NCBI GenBank assembly: GCA_027575765.1
Contig: JANBPT010000478.1
Span: forward strand, 1 to 34,146
Direction: 5' to 3'
Source: Tieghemiomyces parasiticus
Taxonomy: Eukaryota; Kickxellomycota; Dimargaritomycetes; Dimargaritales; Dimargaritaceae
DNA: 34,146 nucleotides
In this document: one piece after another, positions 11,552-33,908 of the stretch
How the letters are laid out: every line of letters starts with the position of its first letter
Position numbering within the stretch: position 1 is the first letter of the stretch
The notes under the pieces: model-generated
Database searches by the model: none
The model's input: only the letters and a program-made list of their open reading frames with translations
What the model was told of the DNA's origin: nothing
Made by a program: the position numbers and the translations under genes

Positions 11552-13114
11552 ATGGCCACGACAACCACTATCGCCATTCTGAGCGGCCTAACTGGTGGCC
11601 TTTTGGCCCTGGTCTGGCTCAGCGGCATCGACCCGGCCGTCCTCTCGCCCCTTGGGCTGGCCTTGACCTACTTTTGCCCACCCCATTATGCGCAGCCCTC
11701 TTGGACCGGACCGGCCACCGCACCGCAGCGACGTCCCCCGCCGCCGTCCTCCCGGCCCTTACGGCTCAAGCTTCAGCAGGTGCTGTATCACGGCGCCCAC
11801 GACGAGTCGGACCTATTCCTCCAGCACTCCGTCGGTCCGAGCCAGTCCGGCGCTGTCGAAGCCCAGAGCGACGCGGAGCGCGCGGGCGAGTACGGCCTGC
11901 ACGCCGTCCCGGCCCCACGTATTCCCTACCCGGTCAGCCACGTCGACGACTTTCTACGGTATCTAGCTCGGCGACAACCCCTGGCATCACCCGCCGAGAC
12001 ACCCCTCGCCCTCGATGAAGCGGGCGGCCCCGATGTCTACGCCACGGCGGCTACCAGCCTCGCATTCAACGACGTACCCTTCCGCCACCACTACCACGTG
12101 TACGCTGCCCGCCAGACCACCAGTTTCTGGCGTAGCCCGGCGGCCGCTTCCCTGGCCAAGGCGGCCGTGACAGAGCCCACTGCCCGTAGACCACCCGTCC
12201 CACGCCTCCCGCCGCTGGTCCACCCGGACGTGGATGATCCGGCCACGGTCCTAGCCCTGGCCAAGATGGCCTCCAACGCCTACGTGCTCCCCGCGGACGC
12301 CCTGTGGTACGATTTACGCAAGGACCAGTGGGTGCGCAACGACTCCTTCGGTTGGGGCTCGGACGGCCTCCGGGGCCACCTCTTCGCCGACGACACCAAC
12401 TCGACCGTAGTCATTGCCATTAAGGGCACCAGTGCCCGGTTCTTTTTAGGCGGTGATTCGGAAACGGCCGCCCGCGACCGCCTCAACGATAACCGACTTT
12501 TCTCGTGCTGCTGTGCCCGCGTCGACTACTCTTGGTCCACCGTATGTGACTGCTATAAAAGCGGCTGGGATTGCGGCCAGCAATGCGTCGAGGACAGTCT
12601 TGATAAGGAAGACCTATACTTCCAAGCCGCCGCCAACCTCTTCCTTTACGCCCACAGCCAGTACCCCAGGGCTAACCTGTGGCTGGTGGGTCATTCACTG
12701 GGTGGGTCCCTGGCCGGCCTCATGGGACTCACCTACGGTCACCCCGTGGTGGCCTTTGAAGCCCCACCCGAACGTCGGGCCGCCCAGCGACTCCACCTCC
12801 CCGTGGGGCCCGCCGTATCTATGGACGACCTCCCAGTATGGCACTTTGGCCATAACGCTGACCCGCTCTTCACGGGTGAATGCCAGGGTGGTGCTAGTAG
12901 TTGTTACTATGCAGGATACGCCATGGAAACCAAGTGCCACTCGGGACGCACCTGTACGTTCGATACCATCAAGGGTAAAAAGTGGAGTGTGGACATCCGC
13001 CACCACCGAATTTCCTTAGTCATCGACGAGGTCTTGCAAGATCCTAACATGACATGGCCCACTTGTCGGTATAACAGCAACTGTACGGATTGCGATTCTT
13101 GGAAGTACATTTAG
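11552..13114 (+). CDS. ATG15: Atg15-type vacuolar phospholipase/triacylglycerol lipase
   Basis: An intronless gene for 520 residues, the same length as yeast Atg15, which breaks down the membranes of autophagic and Cvt bodies and multivesicular-body vesicles inside the vacuole. The N-terminus (about 5-25) is a hydrophobic signal anchor, as required for delivery by the multivesicular-body route. The class-3 lipase fold starts near 225. It contains VIAIKGTS, a Cys-rich segment LFSCCCARVDYSWSTVCDC, and the nucleophile elbow GHSLGG with Ser382. The other likely triad residues are Asp437 in HFGHNADPLF and one of His484/His485 in DIRHHRI. The segments AFEAPPERRAAQRLHLP and SCYYAGYAMETKCHSG are typical of the Atg15 family. 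N-glycosylation sequons occur (for example N293 and N499). The ATG context is CCCATGG. All catalytic elements are intact. Confidence 0.95.
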   Translation: MATTTTIAILSGLTGGLLALVWLSGIDPAVLSPLGLALTYFCPPHYAQPSWTGPATAPQRRPPPPSSRPLRLKLQQVLYHGAHDESDLFLQHSVGPSQSGAVEAQSDAERAGEYGLHAVPAPRIPYPVSHVDDFLRYLARRQPLASPAETPLALDEAGGPDVYATAATSLAFNDVPFRHHYHVYAARQTTSFWRSPAAASLAKAAVTEPTARRPPVPRLPPLVHPDVDDPATVLALAKMASNAYVLPADALWYDLRKDQWVRNDSFGWGSDGLRGHLFADDTNSTVVIAIKGTSARFFLGGDSETAARDRLNDNRLFSCCCARVDYSWSTVCDCYKSGWDCGQQCVEDSLDKEDLYFQAAANLFLYAHSQYPRANLWLVGHSLGGSLAGLMGLTYGHPVVAFEAPPERRAAQRLHLPVGPAVSMDDLPVWHFGHNADPLFTGECQGGASSCYYAGYAMETKCHSGRTCTFDTIKGKKWSVDIRHHRISLVIDEVLQDPNMTWPTCRYNSNCTDCDSWKYI

Positions 13115-14800: not shown

Positions 14801-15799
14801 ATGAGAGTCAATATCGTTTTCCTCGCTGCCGTTGCCTCGGTCATGGCCTCTGATGTTCTGGCGGCTCCGGGTCAGGTTCAGCTGGGCGTCCGTTCCTACA
14901 TCGCGAATCCCGCTCCGGAACACGGCCACCAGAGTCCCCAGCACGGCAGCAATTATTCCCCTGCCCCCGGCCACCATGACTCGGAGCACGGCCATGAAGG
15001 TCCTCAGAACGGTGACAAATACGGCGGTGAGCACCGTCCTGAGCAAGGTAATGAGCACGGCCCTGAACGCCAGGGCCCTGGCTACCAGGCCCACGGCCCC
15101 GAGCACGGCCACCAAGGACCTTCCCACGGTGGTAACTATGGCTCCGGTCCTGGCCACCAAGGTGGTGAGCATGGCCACGGTGGACCCCAGAAGGGCGGCA
15201 ATCACGGCCCCGAGCGCCAGGGTCCTAGCTACCCGGCCCACGGCCCCGAGTACGGCTACGAGGGCCCCTCCCACGGTGGACCCCACAAGGGCGGCAACAA
15301 CGGCCCCGAGCGCCAGGGCCCTGGCTACCAGGCCCACGGCCCCGAGCACGGTCACGAGGGTCCTTCCCACGGTGGTAACTATGGCTCCGGTCCTGGCCAC
15401 CAAGGTGGCGAGTATGGCCACAGTGGACCCCAGAAGGGCGGCAATCACGGTCCCGAGCGCCAGGGTCCTAGCTACCAGNNNNNNNNNNNNNNNNNNNNNN
15501 NNNNNNNNNNNNNNNNNNNNNNNNNNNNNNNNNNNNNNNNNNNNNNNNNNNNNNNNNNNNNNNNNNNNNNNNNNNNACAAGGTGGCGAGTATGGCCACAG
15601 TGGACCCCAGAAGGGCGGCAATCACGGTCCCGAGCGCCAGGGTCCTAGCTACCAGGCCCACGGCCCCGAGCACGGCAACGAGGGCCCCTCCCACGGTGGA
15701 CCCCACAAGGGCGGCAACAACGGACCTGAGCACGGTGGTTACAAGGCCCAGGGCCCTGACCATGGCCACGGTAACGGCCCACAATATACCAGCCGTTAA
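14801..15799 (+). CDS. Secreted His/Gly/Pro-rich tandem-repeat protein (contains assembly gap)
   Basis: The ATG at 14801 opens a signal peptide, MRVNIVFLAAVASVMASDVLA, with likely cleavage before APG. The rest is almost entirely repeats built from short pieces such as HGPEHGHEGPSHGG, GPERQGP[GS]Y and GPQKGGNHG. One full unit is 81 residues (243 bases); the second unit begins 243 bases after the first (about 15060 and 15303). A run of 98 Ns interrupts the second unit. The frame is the same on both sides, but the true length of the protein (nominally 332 residues) is unknown. No Cys is present, and His, Gly, Pro and Glu dominate, so it is probably disordered, possibly metal-binding or part of a cell-surface or extracellular matrix (inference). 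The family is not recognised. Long ORFs in other frames are by-products of the stop-free repeats. Confidence 0.8.
   Translation: MRVNIVFLAAVASVMASDVLAAPGQVQLGVRSYIANPAPEHGHQSPQHGSNYSPAPGHHDSEHGHEGPQNGDKYGGEHRPEQGNEHGPERQGPGYQAHGPEHGHQGPSHGGNYGSGPGHQGGEHGHGGPQKGGNHGPERQGPSYPAHGPEYGYEGPSHGGPHKGGNNGPERQGPGYQAHGPEHGHEGPSHGGNYGSGPGHQGGEYGHSGPQKGGNHGPERQGPSYQXXXXXXXXXXXXXXXXXXXXXXXXXXXXXXXXXQGGEYGHSGPQKGGNHGPERQGPSYQAHGPEHGNEGPSHGGPHKGGNNGPEHGGYKAQGPDHGHGNGPQYTSR
15060..15740 (+). repeat. In-frame tandem repeats, 243-base unit with internal sub-repeats
   Basis: Two 81-residue units are arranged in tandem, the second incomplete because of the gap, followed by partial copies. Within each unit, GPERQGP[GS]Y[QP]AHGPE occurs twice, about 50 residues apart, showing an older internal duplication. 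Near-identity at the DNA level (for example 15158-15235 against 15401-15478) points to recent expansion or gene conversion. Confidence 0.8.
15479..15576. other. Assembly gap of 98 Ns inside the repeat array
   Basis: The 78 bases left of the gap (15401-15478) are identical to the 78 bases at 15578-15655, just right of it, with an offset of 177 bases. The main array has a 243-base period, so a gap of 164 rather than 98 bases would be expected if the period holds. The array was probably not resolved in assembly. Confidence 0.95.
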
Positions 15800-18417: not shown

Positions 18418-21400
18418 TCAATGGTAGCTCGAGCCGCTCGATCCCTCGTCCTCGGAGTCCAAGCGACGCCGTTTAGTCCGTCGACGATTCGTGCCCGCGG
18501 ACCCAGGTGACGGTCTCCCGGTAGGTGACGTGACGGACCCTTCGGTTTGTGAGGACCGCCCGCGGCGCAGGGGCTGGGACGACACCGGGGGACCGGGCCT
18601 CCCCCGGCCCTTCTCTGACCTGGCCTGCCTTTTCGCCCGCTTGGCCTGGCGACCTCGCCGTCGGCGCTGGCCGGAGACGCCACCGTCCGAGTCGGAGGCG
18701 ATGAAAGCTTGTTCATCCTCGGATTCACCCAGTAGCAGGTCATCGACCTCCTCCATCGTGTAGAGTCCGCGCGGGGGTGGTCGACGTCCGCTGGGTCGGG
18801 CCGACCGGGAACGCTTGACAACGTCGCCAAAGTCCGATCCGTCGGCGCTCTCCCCCTCACCGGTGGCTACAGCATCAGTGTCGTCGTCGTTGGACAGCTC
18901 ACCGGCGGAGTCTTCGCCGGACGGAACCGTACCAGCCTCCGGTTCATCGTAGTCGTCCGATTCGGAGCGGTACCGCGCGCGCGTGAAGCGGTGCAAAGTG
19001 TGACGATGGTCGCCGCCGCTACCGGAATCTCCCGAGGAGACGTCGAGTAGTAGCTTACGTAGGGGTCGCAGCCGCTCGCGCAGCTGACTCTGAAAGGTTT
19101 TGACGAGTTTACTGGCCGCGCGGGCGATGGCGCTCTGAGGCTCATTAAATAGGTTGGCATTCGTTTGAATCAGATTGATGTCGAAGGTGACGGCCTGGAA
19201 TTGAGATTATCGCCCGGGTTACGACGAAAAATATATGTATGGGAAGAATGCAAACAACGGTTAGCGGCTCGCCTTGGAACAAAATTTGTGCCATGATGTT
19301 CATCTCGCTTACTTCCAACCTGAAAAATTATGAAGAAAGAAAGAAAGAAAACAACTGTCCACTCACGACGGCTTATTCTCGCGACTTACCTCGATCCTTC
19401 GGTAGTACTTGTTCACCAAACGTTGTGAGACGGAATCTAGACACATTGGGTAGGCCACGGCGCTCAGGTACGATGGGTAGGCCGCGAAATCGACATGCTC
19501 CACGAAGACCTCGTATCGTACGTCACCACGTAGTTCCCCGACAAGGTCACGACACATGTCCGCCACAGGTTTCGGTAACCGCTCGGTAGTCGGACAGGTT
19601 AGGGCGCAGACCGGCAGCCGCGGTGCGCCGTCTTTACCACTATTACTATCCCCCTTCTCCTCCTCCTCTTCCTCCTCCTTGAGTGGGGTTTCGGAAACCG
19701 ACGTGTCCGGTCGCACCAGTTCCCAAGGACTCAACCACTCAGCGGGCCCGTGGCTGGGAGGATTCCACTCGACTTGAAATTGCTGCCACTGGAGTTCAGA
19801 GTAATTATCCTGTAAGGAATTGGCGACATTGTCCTTGTCGGAGAGATCGCCATGCAGGTGTGGCGCGGTGGCCGGTACGGACTTGGTTGCAACGATGCGC
19901 CCAGGATACCTTTCGGAGTCATTATAGAAGGCCACGACGGCGTCGCCGACCCGCAGATTCTGGCGCGCCGCCGCCTGATATTTGGCCAAGAGGACGATGA
20001 AGTCCGGGTTTGTATCAATATCGTGAAAATCGAGCGTGTGCGGCTTACCTGTACGCGTGAAAGGCGGGGGAATGTAACGTGGCGACGACGACGACGACGA
20101 TGATGACGCCGACGACTCCGGAGTTTCAATCTCGCTACTTTCCACATCAATGACACCTGCAGGTGGTTCCGGGCTTGCAGTCAACGCTTCAGGTGCCACT
20201 ATTATATCCTGTAACGTGAGCTGACACCAGGTAGGCGGGCCGACGCGGTACTGCACGTCGTGAATCTCGGCGAAGGTCACATCTGGCGTCGATGCAGTGA
20301 CTGTCCGCACCCTAAATTGGGACGCGAGGGGGCTCGCCTTCAGGAACTGGCGGTGGCCCTCGGCAAAGTACGCCACCAGGTCACCCACCTGCGGTTTGTA
20401 AGGGGTGACCTTGGGTGTGTTGTCGCCGACCCAGTCACCCAGGCCGCCAGCGGCCCCTGTCGCACTGTACGATGGCAGGGGTTCTGGTGTGCTGCCAGTG
20501 GTGTCATCGCCCTCGCGGTATTCGGATTTCATCTCGGCAGGCGATGACGACCCTTCACCATCATCAATATTGTCGTTATCTTCGGAGGTCGCTGCTAAGG
20601 CCTGAATATCCTCTGAATCACTGGCAAGTTGCACTCGTGATTTGCGCAGGTTAACCTTCAGCCGGATGGGACCATCCGGCCCAGTTGGTTTCATTTTTCC
20701 ACCGGCCCGCACCGGTCGCTTGTGGCTGGCCCCCGCGACAGATGAACTGCTCGCCTGGTTGTCCGAGTCTGAATCGAACAGGGCGGGAAGTTTCTCCCGA
20801 CGTTTATGGCTCAACGACGGCCCCAGCGGCGTCTCGGCCGATTGTGCATCGCCGTTGAGGCCATCCGAGTCACTACTATCGGTATAAATCTGGGCGCTTC
20901 GCTGGTGGTGCATTTGGAGGGCCACCGCAGAGGCGGAACTTTGGTGACCCAATTCCAAATCGACCCCCCGCGAGGGTGCGTTCCCGAGTGATGCATCGCT
21001 ATAGTTCAAGTCCGGTTCCGAGTCGGAACTTTCAATGTACGACCGCTGGGTTCGCTGCCGACGCAGGCGCTGGCGACCAGTGGACGAGGAGGGGGGTGAT
21101 GAGCCCTCGGAGGAGCTGGGACTTTCGGCATCATCTAACTCACCCGGCGGACCCCGGCGACTGCGGCGCTGGCTACGGCGTTGGCGGGTGGAGGATGGGC
21201 CTGCGGGTGGTGGGCGCCGACTGGAGCTGTTCCGGTTGCGCGCCAGGGCTGTGGAAATGGATTCGTCGGTGGCCGATCCAGCTGTGTCGGAGCGAGACCG
21301 CCGGCGTTTGCGACGACGTCGAGCCTCCCGTATGGCCCCGAACCCGCGAGTCCCGGTTGACGACCCGTACCTTTCGCCATCCGAATCGAATCCGTCTTCC

Positions 21401-24400
21401 TCATAGGGATCGAACCCGTTATCCTCCATGGCTTCGTCGTCGAAATAGATCCCAGCCCCACGGTCACCGTAGGGGTCCGTATCGGAAGCCGACTCACCCC
21501 CGGCGGAGGAGCCATGAAAGTCCTCGTCATCCTCGTCGTCGGGGAGGGGGTATATGGGCGCCTCGATGGCGAGCGGATCGTCCTCCGCGTCTCCGGCGGT
21601 CTCCGCAACACCGGCGTCCACGTTGCCTCCCTGGGCCCGTCCACGCTTACGCCTAGCGGCTAGGGCCGGGATGGTGGCGGTAACCAGCCCCTCAGCCTCG
21701 GGCGTGTTCAATTCGTCGTACAACTGCACCAGGCGGGTAAGGTCCCGTCGGGCGGCAATGCCTGGAGCCGGATCGGTCGGGAAGCGTAGGCCGTAGCCGG
21801 GTGGCTTCTGGGCGGCGTATTCACGACCGTCAAAATCTCGGATCGGGCCCTTAGGCAACAAGTGCGGGGCGATCTGGTAGAGCTCATCGACTACGTTGCC
21901 GCTGACGTCCAGCACGGTCGGCATGTAATCGGACATGAACATTTGGGAGCCGAACTGGCGCGCCGCGGCGAACTGAGCCGGATTGCAACCAAGACCAAAA
22001 AGTAAGCAAGCCCCATACTCATCGGTGACAGCGAATTGATACCCGTCCCCAGAGAAGCGGCCATCAAAGAAACGCCTGTCGGCGTATCGAAACTCCCGCA
22101 GCTTGGCTCCGGCTTCAATATCCCATAGAATAATGCGGCCGTCGTAGCCCGCAGTCATAACCACCCTTTCCGAAAGCGGGGTGGTGGCGATCACGTAGAC
22201 CTCGTCAGTGTGACCAATGAGCGCGTGGTGCAAGTAGCCCGTGGTGGAGTCAAAGACCTGCCAGGGATGGAGATTAGGAGGAGGGGTATGGATGATGAAA
22301 CGGCAGAAGTGGCAGGGTGTAATGGGTTAGCGGTGGGGTTAAGGGACGCTGAATTGACGGCGATTGGGACGGGCTACTCCCCCACCTACAACCGATTTCA
22401 CTTACCCGAACGGTACCCATAGAGCAAGCGATAATCACGTAACGGTCGTGTTGGGACCAGATAGCCATGGTGACGGGGAAGGTGCGGCTAGTGCCGGGTG
22501 GAGGTGGGGCGGTCTCGGCATCAGCGGGGGGCTGAGAATCGTGACCTTCCTCAGAGGGGTCCGCAGAGGCCGTACCGAGGGGGGCGCCGGGGGTCCGGTG
22601 GGCTAGGTGCGGAGACGTGGCCGCTGGCGGGTTCTGGCTTTCGGAAAGGACAATAGCCGTGTCGGCGACCAGCTCGGGGCCGGCCGTACGCATGTCAAAC
22701 TCGACCGAGGTCCAGGCCTTAGCCTCAGGCTGGAAAGTCCAGACCCGGGCCGTGCCGTCGGCTGAACTGGACAGGATACGGTAGTCGTCGCGGGCGTAGA
22801 GCAGGGCCGTCACATCACCGGTATGTCCCTCGAGACGGGCCACTAGCTTGGGTCGGTGGTCCAGTCGCGCTGATAGATCGTCATCAGGTACGCGCGTGGC
22901 ACCCCCCGCGGGGGTGTGGTAATAAGAACGGCGGGCGGAGATATCGACAGCAGCGGTGGTCAAGTCAGCCACAGTGGAGAATACGCGGATGACGCCGTCC
23001 GAACTGGCCACGGCGAAGTGCGACCCGGTATTATTGAAAGCCGCACATAGTACCGCGTCACGAGGACCGGTCCGACAGTCGAGGACGTAGGCCTCATCGG
23101 AGAAAGTGAGGTGGCGCCGTGACCACCGCCATAAGCGGACCATGCCGTCCTGGCAGCCCGCCAACATGAAGCGGGCGTCGGAGATGGGAGACGGGGAGAA
23201 AAGTAGACAGGCGATTGATTTGCGCTGACCAAGTCGGGTGCGAGGTGGGCGCAGGGTAGGGTCATTGGTGTTCGCTGGGTTAGGGGCGAACATAAAGTAC
23301 ATTGGCGCAGGGAACAACGTTGGTCGTCCCAGTGGGGGTTCGATCAAGGGCCTGGCGGCGCCGAGGGTCGCCCCCTTCCCTCCGTTATTTACAATCAAAC
23401 TCGCCGCTTATCATGCTGAAGGACTTACCGTTCCCACAACGTTGAGGCGGAGGACAGCCGCCGGGGCGCCGGTCGCCATGGTAAACACACGGATCACGCC
23501 GTTCTGGGCGGCCGTGGCCAGCAAGGTGTTCTCCTCATTAATTGAGATGTCCGTGATAACGTCTTGATGGCCTCGTAGTGTATTGATGAGGTAGCCCGAC
23601 CGGGCGCACCACACTTTGATTAAGAAGTCGTCACTACCCTACAGTGTCCGTGGAAGCGGGTCCGATCAGTAGAAACGAAGAGAGTAGATTAGTGGTTGCC
23701 CAATGACATCCACCTCGAGCTCATCGGTGTTCTAGGCGTAAGATGATGCATCCCGGCCGTCTGTACTAAACTCGACGAGGCTGGTCTATACTGAACGCTT
23801 GACAGAGCAGCGGTTGATTTCGAAAACATTAAATCAGATACCTCCGACCGGGCTACATCGCCATAATTGGGAGGGTGATTTGAGACCATCACAGCAAAGC
23901 TGGAGGCTGAAACCAATGAACCTACCGTGATCAATCGTAATCCTGTCTGATCGAACATGACGCAGAAGGAGGCGTACTTATGCCCGTGGACGCAAACCAA
24001 CTCTTCATAGTTGCGCAGCAGGGCAATAGGACAGGCGGGCGGGATGCGATTCGGACGAACCCGCGTACGATCCAGGTAGGTGTGATAATTGCGAACAACT
24101 CTTGTGGGTGGGTCCCGAATGGCACTGCTAGCTAGGAATGTAGTGAGCGTATACGGTGGGTCCCTGGTGAACGGTGCGGACCCGAGGGCCGGCAGACGGG
24201 TCACCGAGATTAGGGTATCGAGTAGGTGAGACGGGGTAACATGGGGAAACTGGTCGACCTATGGGAGGGGAGGGTAGAATGCGGAAAGAAGGGACATGAA
24301 TACGGGCGGGATGGTTAAAGACACAACTCAGCCACGCTGTGAGCGGAAGAATTCACCGACTTGTGGTGCGAAGAAAATCGTCATAGCGTTGAGAATAGAC

Positions 24401-29194: not shown

Positions 29195-32100
29195 ATGTCT
29201 AAATCCGCGCACGAGCGCGTTCCGTCTAATGGGGCGTCACGGGCCGCCTCACCCGGCCAGTATTGCAGCGCAAGCTCAGGTGCTGTAGCCGAACGCACCC
29301 CGGGTGAGCCCACTTTGGTATACCCTGGTCGGCCTAATTTTGATGACCGGCGGGACAGTGGCTTTGTTGATGGTCAGCCCCGACCGCTGCCTACCACCAC
29401 CCGGCACCCAATCCCACTCCCCGCATTCGCCGTCGACCAGCGTTACCAGAACTACCTGCGGAAACGCACCAAGAATTTGCTGAACCTTAGCCACGATGGG
29501 TTTCCCGGTTCTCATACCGTACCGTTCACCCCGGCTGCCTTCGAGTTTCTCGACCAAGAGGACTACTTTGTGAGTGAGCAGGCGGATGGAGTGCGCTACA
29601 TTATGCACATTGTTCATGAGGAGAAACGGTCCGCAGTGTTCATGGCGGACCAGCGCAACCATTACTTCTACGTGCGCGACATGGCCCTAAACTACCCGTG
29701 CCCTGGTAACAAGCACACCCGGGAGACCATTATCGACGGGGAACTCGTTGTGGACACGTCAGATAACCAAGTCCGGCTACATTTCCAACCCTTTGACGTG
29801 TTGGTGTTAAATTCGGTCATTATGCTCCGCCGATCCCTCAGCTCGCGACTCGGACTCCTACGTCAGGATATCATCCAGCCTTACATGAATCTGATGAAGA
29901 ATGATCCTAATTTGGCCAAGCGTCAGGCCTTTACTATATCCATACGCAAAATGGAACGGTCCTATGGGGTCAATCTGCTCATGGCCGACCTCGCCAAGAG
30001 CAAGCATCCCAGTCCCGGGTTGGTTTTCACCCCTGTAAAATTGCCCTACACGCCCGGCCATTACAACAAACTGTAAGTGGTTTCGACCCTGTCGCTCAGG
30101 CTGTAGTCCCAACGTCGGCGGAATATGCGCCAGAAGGGCCATTTTCCCGCTCCTAACCCCGTGTAGGCGGCGTCATTACTCGCTCACCAATAATCTGACC
30201 TGTTTATCTAACCGTATATATTTTTCTTCCGGTCGTTCCCCCTTATTTGTGTGCCCCCTCCTCCTCCTCCTTACCTATAGACTACGGTGGAAACCCCCTG
30301 ATTCCTTCACGGCTGATTTCAAGATCCAGGTGCAGTACAGCAAAGAACGGAAACCCGTCTACAAACTGCTGGTCGGCCACGGCGGGTCAGAGCGTGAGTT
30401 TACCACCCTCCAGCTTGAGGCTGTGGTCTTCCAGCAGTGGCGGAACCACCCACCCGATAACCGTATAGTGACCTGCCGCTATGATCCCGAGTGGAAAGTG
30501 ACCACGGTCGAGGACGGGTACGCTCCGCAGACTCGGAGGGGTGGCTGGCGGTTCCTGCGGTTCCGCGTCGACCGAACGGTTCCTGACGACGATGCCACCG
30601 TGCTGACGGTAGTACAAAACAGCGAACGCGAGGTCCCGCGCGAGGAGTTTGACAAACGACTGGATAGAATCCGCGCCAACTGGAAGGCCCGGGAACGAGC
30701 CGCGGCTGCGAACCAGCCACCATCAGGTAACAGTACCGGCAAGTCCGAAACCCCCGCCGGTACACCACGCTTCACGTCGCCCATGGCACCCTCGGCCACG
30801 CATGAGTCGTATTTCAGCACTAATTCGCACCACGCGGCGCAAAGGATCGCCTCGCCTCGTTCTGTGGCAATGCCGCTACGCACACCTGGCAACTCTTCAC
30901 ACACCCACCACTCGACCGGAACGACACCGGCGACAGTGGACGGTAACGCGGGCGCAGATCGGTCGGTCAGGCCGCTATTGTCGCCTACCGCATCCACACC
31001 TGCTTCCGGGTCGACGAAATCTCACTCCACTTCCTCCATGATGCTGCCCAAACGGCAGACCACACCCCCGCAAGCCAGCCGCGGGAAGCCTGCCACGCCG
31101 ACTGACAACGGTCGTCCCGCCCTTGTCCTTCCGCCCCAGGGAACCTCGGCGTCCGTGGCCAGCGCCGGTAAGCGGAAGTTTGATGAGCACAGTAGTCCAG
31201 CCAGTAGTCCGGCTTTGATGTCGCCCACCCAGCTACCCGCCCGCGTCCTTTCGCAATCCCCTGCGGCCCGTGACCCGGGAAAGTACCCCAAACTGAGTGG
31301 CGACATGCGGTCTCCGCTACGCGAACGTGCGAGTGTCAACTCGACCACGCCTACTACACCTACTGATCCGGCCCGCCGGCCGACGGGGGGCGAGGCGCCA
31401 GCCAGCTCGCCATTGCAGAGTCCGCGTGAAGCTTCTCCCCAGAACATGCGCAAGGGCAGCTCCCTCGACGGCCGACTCTATCTTCCCCGCTCGCACGTCA
31501 TTTCGACCAAGTTGTCGTCGCTGGGTGGTGTCGAGAGTAGCACCCTTTCGCCCGCGAAATCAGCTCCTGAACCAGCTTCTGACAAGCGCCTACCGGCCCT
31601 TGCTCTCCCACCACGGACCGCCAGCAGCCAGCCACCTCCGCCTGTCGTCGACACCACCGTTGTTCCTGCCTCAGAAGCCCCCGCGCAGTCCCCCAAGCTG
31701 GCAGAATCCAATGGGAAACCAGCGACCAGTACACGAGGCGGCACTCGAAGTCGAGGCCGTGGCCGCGGACGTGCGAAGCGATCCTCAGTGTCTGGGCGGT
31801 CCGTCTCGGAGGTCACGGCGCTTCCACCGACCGCCCTGCCGGTACAGTCGGTGTCCGCTTCTACTCCCGCTGTTTATACTAGCATGACCCTCGAATCCAA
31901 CCGCCCCCCTGACGCTGAGCACTTGGAAACCATGCCTGCACCGTCATCCCCGATGCGGGTAGACAGTCCGCCCAACTCCGTGAAAACCGTTCTGCCGACG
32001 TCGCCACCGCCACCGCCTTCCGTCGCAGGCCCACTACCCACACCGTCCTCGCCCACTGTTCAGCCGCCTCCCGAACTCGCATCGACTGCGGCACCTGTCC

Positions 32101-33908
32101 AACTCCCGGGCTCGGCTCTTGTTCAGGTGTCACAAGCGGAGGCCGAAGACGAGCACGTCCGGCAGGAGGCGGAGGCCCAGCGCCAGGCTCAAGAACAGCG
32201 TACCCGGCAAGATGAGGATGTTCAGCGCCAGACCCAATTGGCGGAGGCGTTGCGAATACAGCAACAGCAGGAAGAAACCCATCGACAGCAGCAGCAGAAC
32301 CAAGAGCAGGCCCGTCGGCAGCAAGAGGTGCAAAAGCAGCAGGAAGAGATGCAGCATCAGCAACGATTGCAGCAACTCCAAATCCAACAGAAACAGGAGT
32401 CAGAGCGGTTTCAAATGGAGGCCCAGCGCCAACAGCAACAACAACAGCAGCAGCAGCAGCAACGACACCAGCAGCTCACTCTGCAGTCATCCCCGACAGT
32501 GGTCGCTCCTCGCCCGCCGGCTTCGGCCGGCGGCCTGGCTCCTCGCCCCGAACCTGGCTACCCAGCCCCGCCAACCCACCCTACCGCGCACCCCCACCAT
32601 CCGGCCAACTACCCAGGTGGCCCCCCAGGAAGTGGCCCGCCTTTCACCCCCGTCTCCTATGCCGCCCACCCTGGGGGGCGGCCGCCCGGACCCTTCGATC
32701 CGGCCGGTGGATTCCAGGGTCGTCCACCGCCGGGCACGCTGCACCGCATGCACTCACTGTCGTTACAGAACACGACAGGCCCTCCGCCATTCGATCCGAC
32801 GCGACCCAACTACTCCCCGCGCACACCCACTTTCCCCAACGGCCACCCGTACCCTGGACCCGTGCCCTCTCCAGGGTATCCGCCGGGTGCGCCACTGGGC
32901 CCCAACGGCCTCCCTCCACCGCCGCCCTCGCAATTCTCGCCGCCAGGGAGCCGTCGCAGCTCGTTTACTCAGTCTTTCCCACCTCAGCCGGGCCACCCAT
33001 ACCCACACCCGCCACCGCGGCCGTACCTGCCGGGTACTCCAGGCCAGCCGCCACCGGGCGCTTACCCGGATAGTCCCGGACAGGGTGGATTCCCACCCCA
33101 GAGCGTTCGCTATGTCACCGGTCAGGGCCCGCCCCCGCACGCCCTGGGTCGACCGCCGCACCAGGGTGGCGGCATCCCTGCACGTCCCTCCATGGGCGGC
33201 CGGCGCGCCTCTACCTCCTTCCATGCCGCCATGACTGAGGGGTCCCCTAATCCGGTAGGCCGGCCGCTCAGTAACATGATGCAATCACCGGGCGGCAGTC
33301 CTCGTCCTTTGCCTCCAGGCTACCCACCTCAGCAGGCGCCGCAACCGCCGGGGCCCTTCGTGCGCAAGCATTCCATGCCTGGCGCCCCGATGCCAGGGTA
33401 TGGACCGATGCCCGGCCGACCGCCCCCGCCGCCACCGGGTGGCAGCAGTCCCTATCCGATGGGCGACCCCTACCACACCCATCACTCCCATATCCACGCG
33501 CCAGGGCTGCCGCCATACCCGCAGCAGCAGGCGCCTCACCAACGGCCCCATCCGCATGCCCCACCACCGCACATGGGCCAGCCTCAGCCGCGGCCCCACC
33601 CGCACCATCATCCGTCACATCACCCGCAGCAGCAGCAGCAGTCACAACCTCCGGTAGCCATGCCAACCTCGCATGGCTACCCGGGTCGACCACCGATGGG
33701 TCAACCCGGACACCCTGGCGCTGGATCATCCCCTCACGGGCAGCTCCACGCCAGCGGTCCCGGTACTGCTGGATCCCCGCAAGCTCCGCCGCCCGCTCAG
33801 GTTCGACCATCCGCTCCCGCCGCGGCCCAGCAGTCTAAGTCGGCCCTCAACTTCATCATGAACGACGACGAGCCAGTGGACGATAGCGCATCGTCTTGGT
33901 TTGGGTAG
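29195..33908 (+). CDS. CEG1: Capping-enzyme (guanylyltransferase) homologue lacking the catalytic lysine, with long Q/P-rich tail
   Basis: Two exons, 29195-30072 and 30281-33908 (phase-2 intron, donor CT|GTAAGT, acceptor CCTATAG), giving 1,501 residues. Residues 85-435 follow the Ceg1 guanylyltransferase plus OB-fold: DGFPGSHTVPF, motif I region SEQADGVRYIM, DGELVVD (181-187), FDVLVLN, GLVFTPVKLPYTPG, LLRWKPPDSFTADF, RIVTCRYD and WRFLRFRVDR. Motif I should read K-x-D-G, but residue 129 is Gln (CAG at 29579-29581). The acid of motif IV is Pro274, the first Lys of motif V is Arg295, the Lys of motif VI is Arg391, and the Arg after Asp152 is Gln153. Glu183 is kept. After 435 the chain is disordered: Ser/Pro/Thr-rich, an RG stretch near 777-795, a Gln-rich coiled-coil-like part near 912-1025, a Pro/Gly/His-rich part, and an acidic end NFIMNDDEPVDD...WFG. 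It is probably a non-catalytic paralogue. The symbol marks the family only. Confidence 0.85.
30073..30280 (+). other. Intron of the capping-enzyme-like gene
   Basis: It starts GTAAGTGG and ends in a CTCC-rich tract with CCTATAG. Joining CT to A restores Leu293 and gives N-K-L-L-R-W-K-P, the expected motif V environment, which supports this exact splice. A CTAAC motif occurs near 30152. Confidence 0.85.
32137..32476 (+). repeat. Glutamine-codon-rich tract within the capping-enzyme-like gene
   Basis: CAG/CAA codons alternate with Glu, Arg and Lys codons, and a pure run of 11 Gln codons occupies 32430-32462. The encoded part (about residues 912-1025) should form a long charged helix or coiled coil. 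Mixed CAG/CAA use suggests it is maintained as protein sequence rather than arising by recent slippage alone. Confidence 0.8.

Follow-up and report, generated by a model that had tools for sequence, protein, structure and literature searches.

A second mRNA guanylyltransferase homologue of Tieghemiomyces parasiticus: a predicted pseudo-enzyme that likely serves as an adaptor

Gene structure and copies

The window analysed here is a 34,146-nucleotide stretch of Tieghemiomyces parasiticus DNA (contig C785, JANBPT010000478.1) from an assembly of 46.5 Mb in 1,363 contigs; NCBI taxonomy places the species in the Dimargaritales. Towards its end, on the forward strand (29195–30072 and 30281–33908, splicing predicted), lies a gene for a homologue of fungal mRNA guanylyltransferases. 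Exon 1 (29195–30072) encodes residues 1–292 and two bases of codon 293, covering the N-terminal extension and most of the nucleotidyltransferase domain, and is followed by a predicted GT-AG intron of 208 bases (30073–30280) and by exon 2 (30281–33908), which carries motif V, the OB domain, a long tail and the stop codon. Joining the exons at this predicted splice restores GLVFTPVKLPYTPGHYNKLLRWKPP, which aligns with GLIFTPVKQEYIPGTCAKLLKWKPP of Dimargaris. The 1,501-residue product comprises an N-terminal extension (residues 1–75), a guanylyltransferase head (76–430) and a low-complexity tail of 1,071 residues (431–1501; 30693–33905), the last made up of 20% Pro, 11% Ser and 9% Gln, with a longest Gln run of 11, and likely disordered, judging from this composition alone. 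A preliminary description of the sequence had placed the gene at 29195–30590, but the frame continues through the tail to 33908.

A second copy of the gene, on contig C1195, is 94.8% identical to the window copy across 7,685 aligned columns. Its intron is 207 bases long (GTGAGT...CTACAG), and the reading frame is open across 1,501 codons in both copies. The NCBI model of the C1195 homologue (P0070) is marked partial at 1,085 residues and is 18 residues short between motifs IV and V; we take it to derive from the same assembly as the C1195 copy, so it is no independent evidence. All four capping genes examined occur on two contigs each (C785/C1195, C806/C1360, C851/C706, C731/C874). Because they are paired in this way, with dS (synonymous divergence) of ~0.11 in both contig pairs compared (C785/C1195 and C806/C1360), the data suggest that two haplotypes, a hybrid or a mixed culture were assembled together.

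Lost and retained residues of the head

The assignment to the guanylyltransferases, already made in the preliminary description, is borne out by Pfam matches to the catalytic (E 2.9e-37) and C-terminal (E 1.2e-8) domains of capping enzymes. By sequence, the closest solved structure is fission yeast Pce1 (E 5.9e-38, residues 85–435), and the model-predicted fold, with the domains modelled apart, contains nucleotidyltransferase and OB domains of capping-enzyme type. In a viral structure library, the 50 matches listed either bore the names of capping enzymes, ligases, mRNA 5'-phosphatases or the like, or had uninformative names.

We compared the head across 207 guanylyltransferase rows (204 search matches together with the proteins of both gene copies and the intact paralogue described below); fractions count only rows with a letter in the given column. 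Motif I reads EQADG instead of KxDG, with Gln129 (CAG, 29579–29581) in place of the lysine that accepts guanosine monophosphate (GMP), and Gln129 is present in both copies. Among the 193 rows with a letter here, 189 have Lys, three Gln and one Leu. The three Gln rows belong to one species (the window protein, the second copy and the NCBI record of the latter), and the sole Leu is that of Polyrhizophydium stewartii (P0081), referred to with the window protein as the two inactivated proteins. Fourteen rows have a gap, two of which (P0079, P0080) nonetheless show EKSDG in their sequence. No Lys lies within 10 residues of position 129 in the window protein.

The losses extend well beyond motif I. 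The motif III Arg is Gln153 (29651–29653; Arg in 190 of 195 rows, with Tyr in P0006 besides the inactivated rows), the motif IV Asp is Pro274 (30014–30016; Asp in 202 of 206), the first motif V Lys is Arg295 (30285–30287; Lys in 201 of 206, with Gln in P0112 besides the inactivated rows) and the motif VI Lys is Arg391 (30573–30575; Lys in 165 of 169). Two further positions are changed identically in both inactivated proteins: Arg251 (29945–29947) replaces the IIIc Lys, which is present in 19/19 tail-bearing (see below) and 119/119 other fungal rows, and Asp395 (30585–30587) replaces an Asn just past motif VI found in 18/18 and 120/120 such rows. Altogether, the window protein is altered at 10 of the 27 near-invariant columns, defined as those in which 97% or more of the other 203 rows agree. 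The preliminary description had correctly read residues 129, 153, 274, 295 and 391; the changes at Lys251 and Asn395 and a few others were missing from its list.

By alignment and spacing, Lys251 likely corresponds to the guanine-contacting lysine, Lys188 of the PBCV-1 enzyme. According to one report, the chlorella virus lysine contacts guanine O6, and its change to Ala kills activity but not GTP binding (PMC3783409). Retained in the window protein are the DGE (D181-G182-E183), Trp296, the second motif V Lys (Lys297), the DG and Arg of motif I and, in motif VI, the Asp and both Arg. Since the head is without the GMP-accepting Lys and other near-invariant residues, we predict that the protein is catalytically dead.

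An intact guanylyltransferase in the same genome

Searches of the genome with catalytic and OB profiles found two genes only, each in at least two copies: the window homologue and an intact guanylyltransferase on C1360 and C806 (six exons, 378 residues), whose motifs read EKSDG, IDRK, FDGE, KNDG, LKWKP and RFREDK. The latter is a second guanylyltransferase with an intact motif I, such as the preliminary description had suggested looking for. RNA triphosphatase and cap methyltransferase profiles also matched, on at least two contigs each, and NCBI lists T. parasiticus proteins 94% and 99% identical to the window homologue and the intact enzyme respectively. That the window gene is the sole capping enzyme of the genome can be rejected, given the intact paralogue in two copies; the separate enzyme likely performs capping.

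Comparison of the two copies of the window gene revealed 26 synonymous and three nonsynonymous differences in the head (dS 0.1145, nonsynonymous divergence dN 0.0037, omega 0.032), 81 and 42 in the tail (omega 0.176), and four and two in the N-terminal 75 codons. The two copies of the intact paralogue differ by 28 synonymous and three nonsynonymous changes (omega 0.031). By this one comparison of copies, the inactivated head is constrained as tightly as the intact enzyme. The window gene combines, as judged from one copy pair, two marks of a predicted pseudo-enzyme: its catalytic residues are gone and its frame is under purifying selection.

A tail-bearing clade of early-diverging fungi

To place the gene, we used a 61-row tree of the window protein, the intact paralogue and 59 domain-trimmed search matches out of 204. 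It contains a clade of 20 rows (support 100/97; 98/88 with the changed sites masked), for which we coin the name tail-bearing clade, and a second clade of 36 rows (98/95) that unites the ordinary fungal enzymes with one row from an aphelid and one from a metagenome. Named tail-bearing members are Quaeritorhiza (P0002), Rhizophlyctis, Polychytrium, Spizellomyces (P0074), Powellomyces, Fimicolochytrium, Thoreauomyces and Polyrhizophydium, all of which we take to be chytrids, as well as Umbelopsis (P0073), Apophysomyces, Benjaminiella, Zychaea, Calcarisporiella, Ambispora, Entomophthora and the Dimargaritales. None of the named members is from Dikarya. The window protein is sister to a Dimargaris cristalligena copy (100/100), with branches of 0.77 and 0.24 respectively; the ordinary enzymes of T. 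parasiticus and D. cristalligena have branches of 0.41 and 0.34 from an unresolved fork. Both guanylyltransferase types occur in Tieghemiomyces and in D. cristalligena, and the tail-bearing clade appears to represent a second guanylyltransferase gene in early-diverging fungi. No tail-bearing copies of Dispira simplex, Dimargaris verticillata or D. xerosporica were among the matches, although these searches were limited by shared words and length, so that absence is not proven. We found no description of a second fungal guanylyltransferase, inactive paralogue or pseudo-enzyme in the literature searched, which mostly excluded subscription journals. Among the ordinary enzymes, that of Stylonectria norvegica (P0082) is joined to PF00787 and PF09325, which we take to be domains of sorting-nexin type, possibly through a gene-model fusion.

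The motif I Lys is kept in 18 of the 19 other tail-bearing rows aligned there and lost in the window gene. The exception is P. stewartii P0081, whose gene model begins inside the head and which is changed at 10 of the 23 near-invariant columns that it covers. Over these shared columns the window protein has eight changes, seven of which coincide with those of P0081 (Lys129, Arg153, Lys251, Asp274, Lys295, Lys391 and Asn395 in window numbering; hypergeometric P 0.003, with columns treated as exchangeable), and at Lys251, Lys295, Lys391 and Asn395 both proteins carry the same replacement residue. A tree forced to unite the two proteins, a pair chosen after tree inspection, lost 28.5 log-likelihood units (approximately unbiased (AU) test, p 0.04); when the changed sites of both proteins were masked and three divergent rows (two dinoflagellates, one unnamed) removed, the loss came to 29.7 units (AU p 0.004). 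A single shared loss is disfavoured by these values, which are not overwhelming. Because the uniting tree is disfavoured, the Lys was probably lost twice; after masking, the placement of Polyrhizophydium inside the clade is unresolved.

Near its end, with 14 residues to follow, the tail of the window protein carries a short peptide, LNFIMN (residues 1482–1487; 33846–33863). Peptides of the form Lx[FVIM][IV][LM][NG], no more than 19 residues from the end, are present in 11 of 22 tail-bearing rows (excluding the second copy and P0070, which are the same gene) and in none of the 120 ordinary fungal rows or the 62 others; among 2,000 shuffles of each tail, no more than 0.4% gave a match. Neither inactivated protein has lost the peptide. 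Upstream of it, the Umbelopsis, Apophysomyces and Benjaminiella tails (P0073, P0079, P0072, P0003) appear, by eye, to share a further stretch, S(I/N)(A/H)xLL followed by VE.

Interpretation

Our preferred reading, to which we give a probability of roughly 0.6, is that the window gene encodes a second mRNA guanylyltransferase homologue, predicted to be dead and likely kept as a non-catalytic adaptor, while the separate intact enzyme likely caps. The pseudo-enzyme proposed in the preliminary description is thereby well supported as a prediction from sequence: neither copy has the motif I Lys, an intact paralogue exists, the head is constrained and a second relative is inactivated. In the ancestor of the tail-bearing clade, the head would have carried out guanylyl transfer and the tail would have been linked to a second function, either in transcription or in the processing of 5' ends. 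With capping taken care of by the ordinary fungal enzyme, the chemistry of the head could likely decay unhindered, which probably happened in two lineages, with fold and tail kept. A partner in capping or elongation, or the RNA 5' end, might then dock on the head, and the C-terminal LxxIL-like peptide might recruit a partner protein. We regard as evenly balanced the broader proposal that an ancient second, long-tailed guanylyltransferase of early-diverging fungi, with a conserved peptide near its C terminus, is a transcription adaptor with a capping-enzyme head, and that at least two lineages (Tieghemiomyces and Polyrhizophydium) have taken apart the GTP chemistry of this head at the same sites and preserved the fold, the tail and the peptide.

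Several observations weigh against the adaptor reading. Contacts with the C-terminal domain (CTD) of RNA polymerase II (Pol II) are described for the conserved human arginine R358, the human R386 site and the CDS2 lysines K178/K193 of Candida (PMC8034621). Mapped through alignments, R358 is equivalent to His196, the R386 site to Gln224 and K178/K193 to Met234/Thr247 in the window protein, so that the CDS2 phosphoserine contacts are not retained; the Tyr1 pocket is partly kept (Phe125, Leu219, Met253). Because the published phosphoserine contacts are lost, the docking partner may not be Pol II, although such sites vary in active relatives too (the R358 equivalent is Arg in 12 of the 18 tail-bearing rows with a letter). 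The scaffold role at Pol II raised in the preliminary description is thus just one option, with mixed support from the sequence. In addition, no recognised Chytridiomycota genus was found for the ordinary enzyme among the named proteins (120 of 786 matches listed), and if chytrids have the tail-bearing type only, redundancy fails to explain Polyrhizophydium. Finally, the C-terminal peptide is missing from 11 of the 22 tail-bearing rows; five of these are marked partial and two are fragments of ~300 residues, with Calcarisporiella, Entomophthora, Polychytrium and Fimicolochytrium being neither. Its counts describe rather than test, because the pattern was written after the tails had been seen.

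Four alternatives were considered. The protein could be a reader of capped or guanosine-bearing 5' ends, its pocket turned into a cap-binding site. The precedent is the m3G-cap-binding domain of snurportin-1, which has a guanylyltransferase-like fold without enzyme function; the identity is 12%, and cap binding by the window protein would be hypothetical. We think such a reader possible but unlikely. Somewhat more doubtful is a competitive regulator, a dead copy that occupies a docking partner of the intact enzyme (the Pol II CTD, Spt5 or the RNA triphosphatase) and so lowers or delays capping. Intact and dead genes in one genome, the predicted fold and the remaining part of the Tyr1 pocket would suit this role, but the CDS2 contacts at His196, Met234 and Thr247 are lost and pure competition has no need of a conserved tail peptide. 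It is highly improbable that the protein is still an enzyme using another nucleophile or other chemistry: the strong constraint and the retained DGE, motif I DG and Arg, and second motif V Lys would fit, but the motif III Arg, IIIc Lys, IV Asp and VI Lys are altered as well and there is no nearby lysine to substitute for residue 129. Hardly more credible is a relic heading for loss or an error of sequencing or assembly: the window protein does have a longer branch than its sister, but a diverged second copy with CAG and the same other changes, which as the preliminary description held a single AAG-to-CAG error could not explain, rejects sequencing error, and the 26 to 3 ratio in the head (omega 0.032), with 1,501 open codons in both copies, disfavours a dying pseudogene.

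If the broader proposal above is true, it amounts to a natural split of the capping enzyme's structural role from catalysis, the two being combined in one guanylyltransferase in the studied yeasts. Yeast capping enzymes are reported in a review (PMC6981093) to affect transcription beyond capping, and in a genome that has an intact guanylyltransferase alongside a predicted dead one such a capping-independent role would be directly testable.

Other genes in the window

Elsewhere in the window, a Lipase_3 protein, which may, we assume, be the autophagy lipase ATG15, is encoded at 11552–13114 (+). A repetitive GHEGPxHGG-type protein without a Pfam match lies at 14801–15799 (+), with a 98-base run of N (15479–15576) inside the repeat. 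Two adjoining open reading frames at 19363–22233 and 22274–23398 (-) encode WD40 repeats and a bromodomain; they are possibly one intron-split gene, presumably BRWD/PHIP-like.

Comparison with known systems

The window protein resembles the fungal mRNA guanylyltransferases (Pce1, Candida Cgt1 and budding yeast Ceg1) in its nucleotidyltransferase and OB fold, with the Pce1 match given above, and in its DGE, motif I DG and Arg, and several structural motif residues. It differs from them in the replacement of the motif I Lys, III Arg, IIIc Lys, IV Asp, first V Lys and VI Lys, and in its 1,071-residue tail. With its tail-bearing relatives (D. cristalligena P0001 and others) it shares a clade, a head 34–56% identical and, in 10 of 21 other rows, a similar C-terminal peptide; unlike it, 18 of the 19 others keep the motif I Lys. 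A duplicated capping gene is also found in the Cet1/Ctl1 RNA triphosphatase pair of budding yeast, which concerns another enzyme of the pathway. There the faster copy lost its capping-partner motif and Ctl1 keeps 14 of 15 catalytic sites (PMC2704937), making that pair the reverse case.
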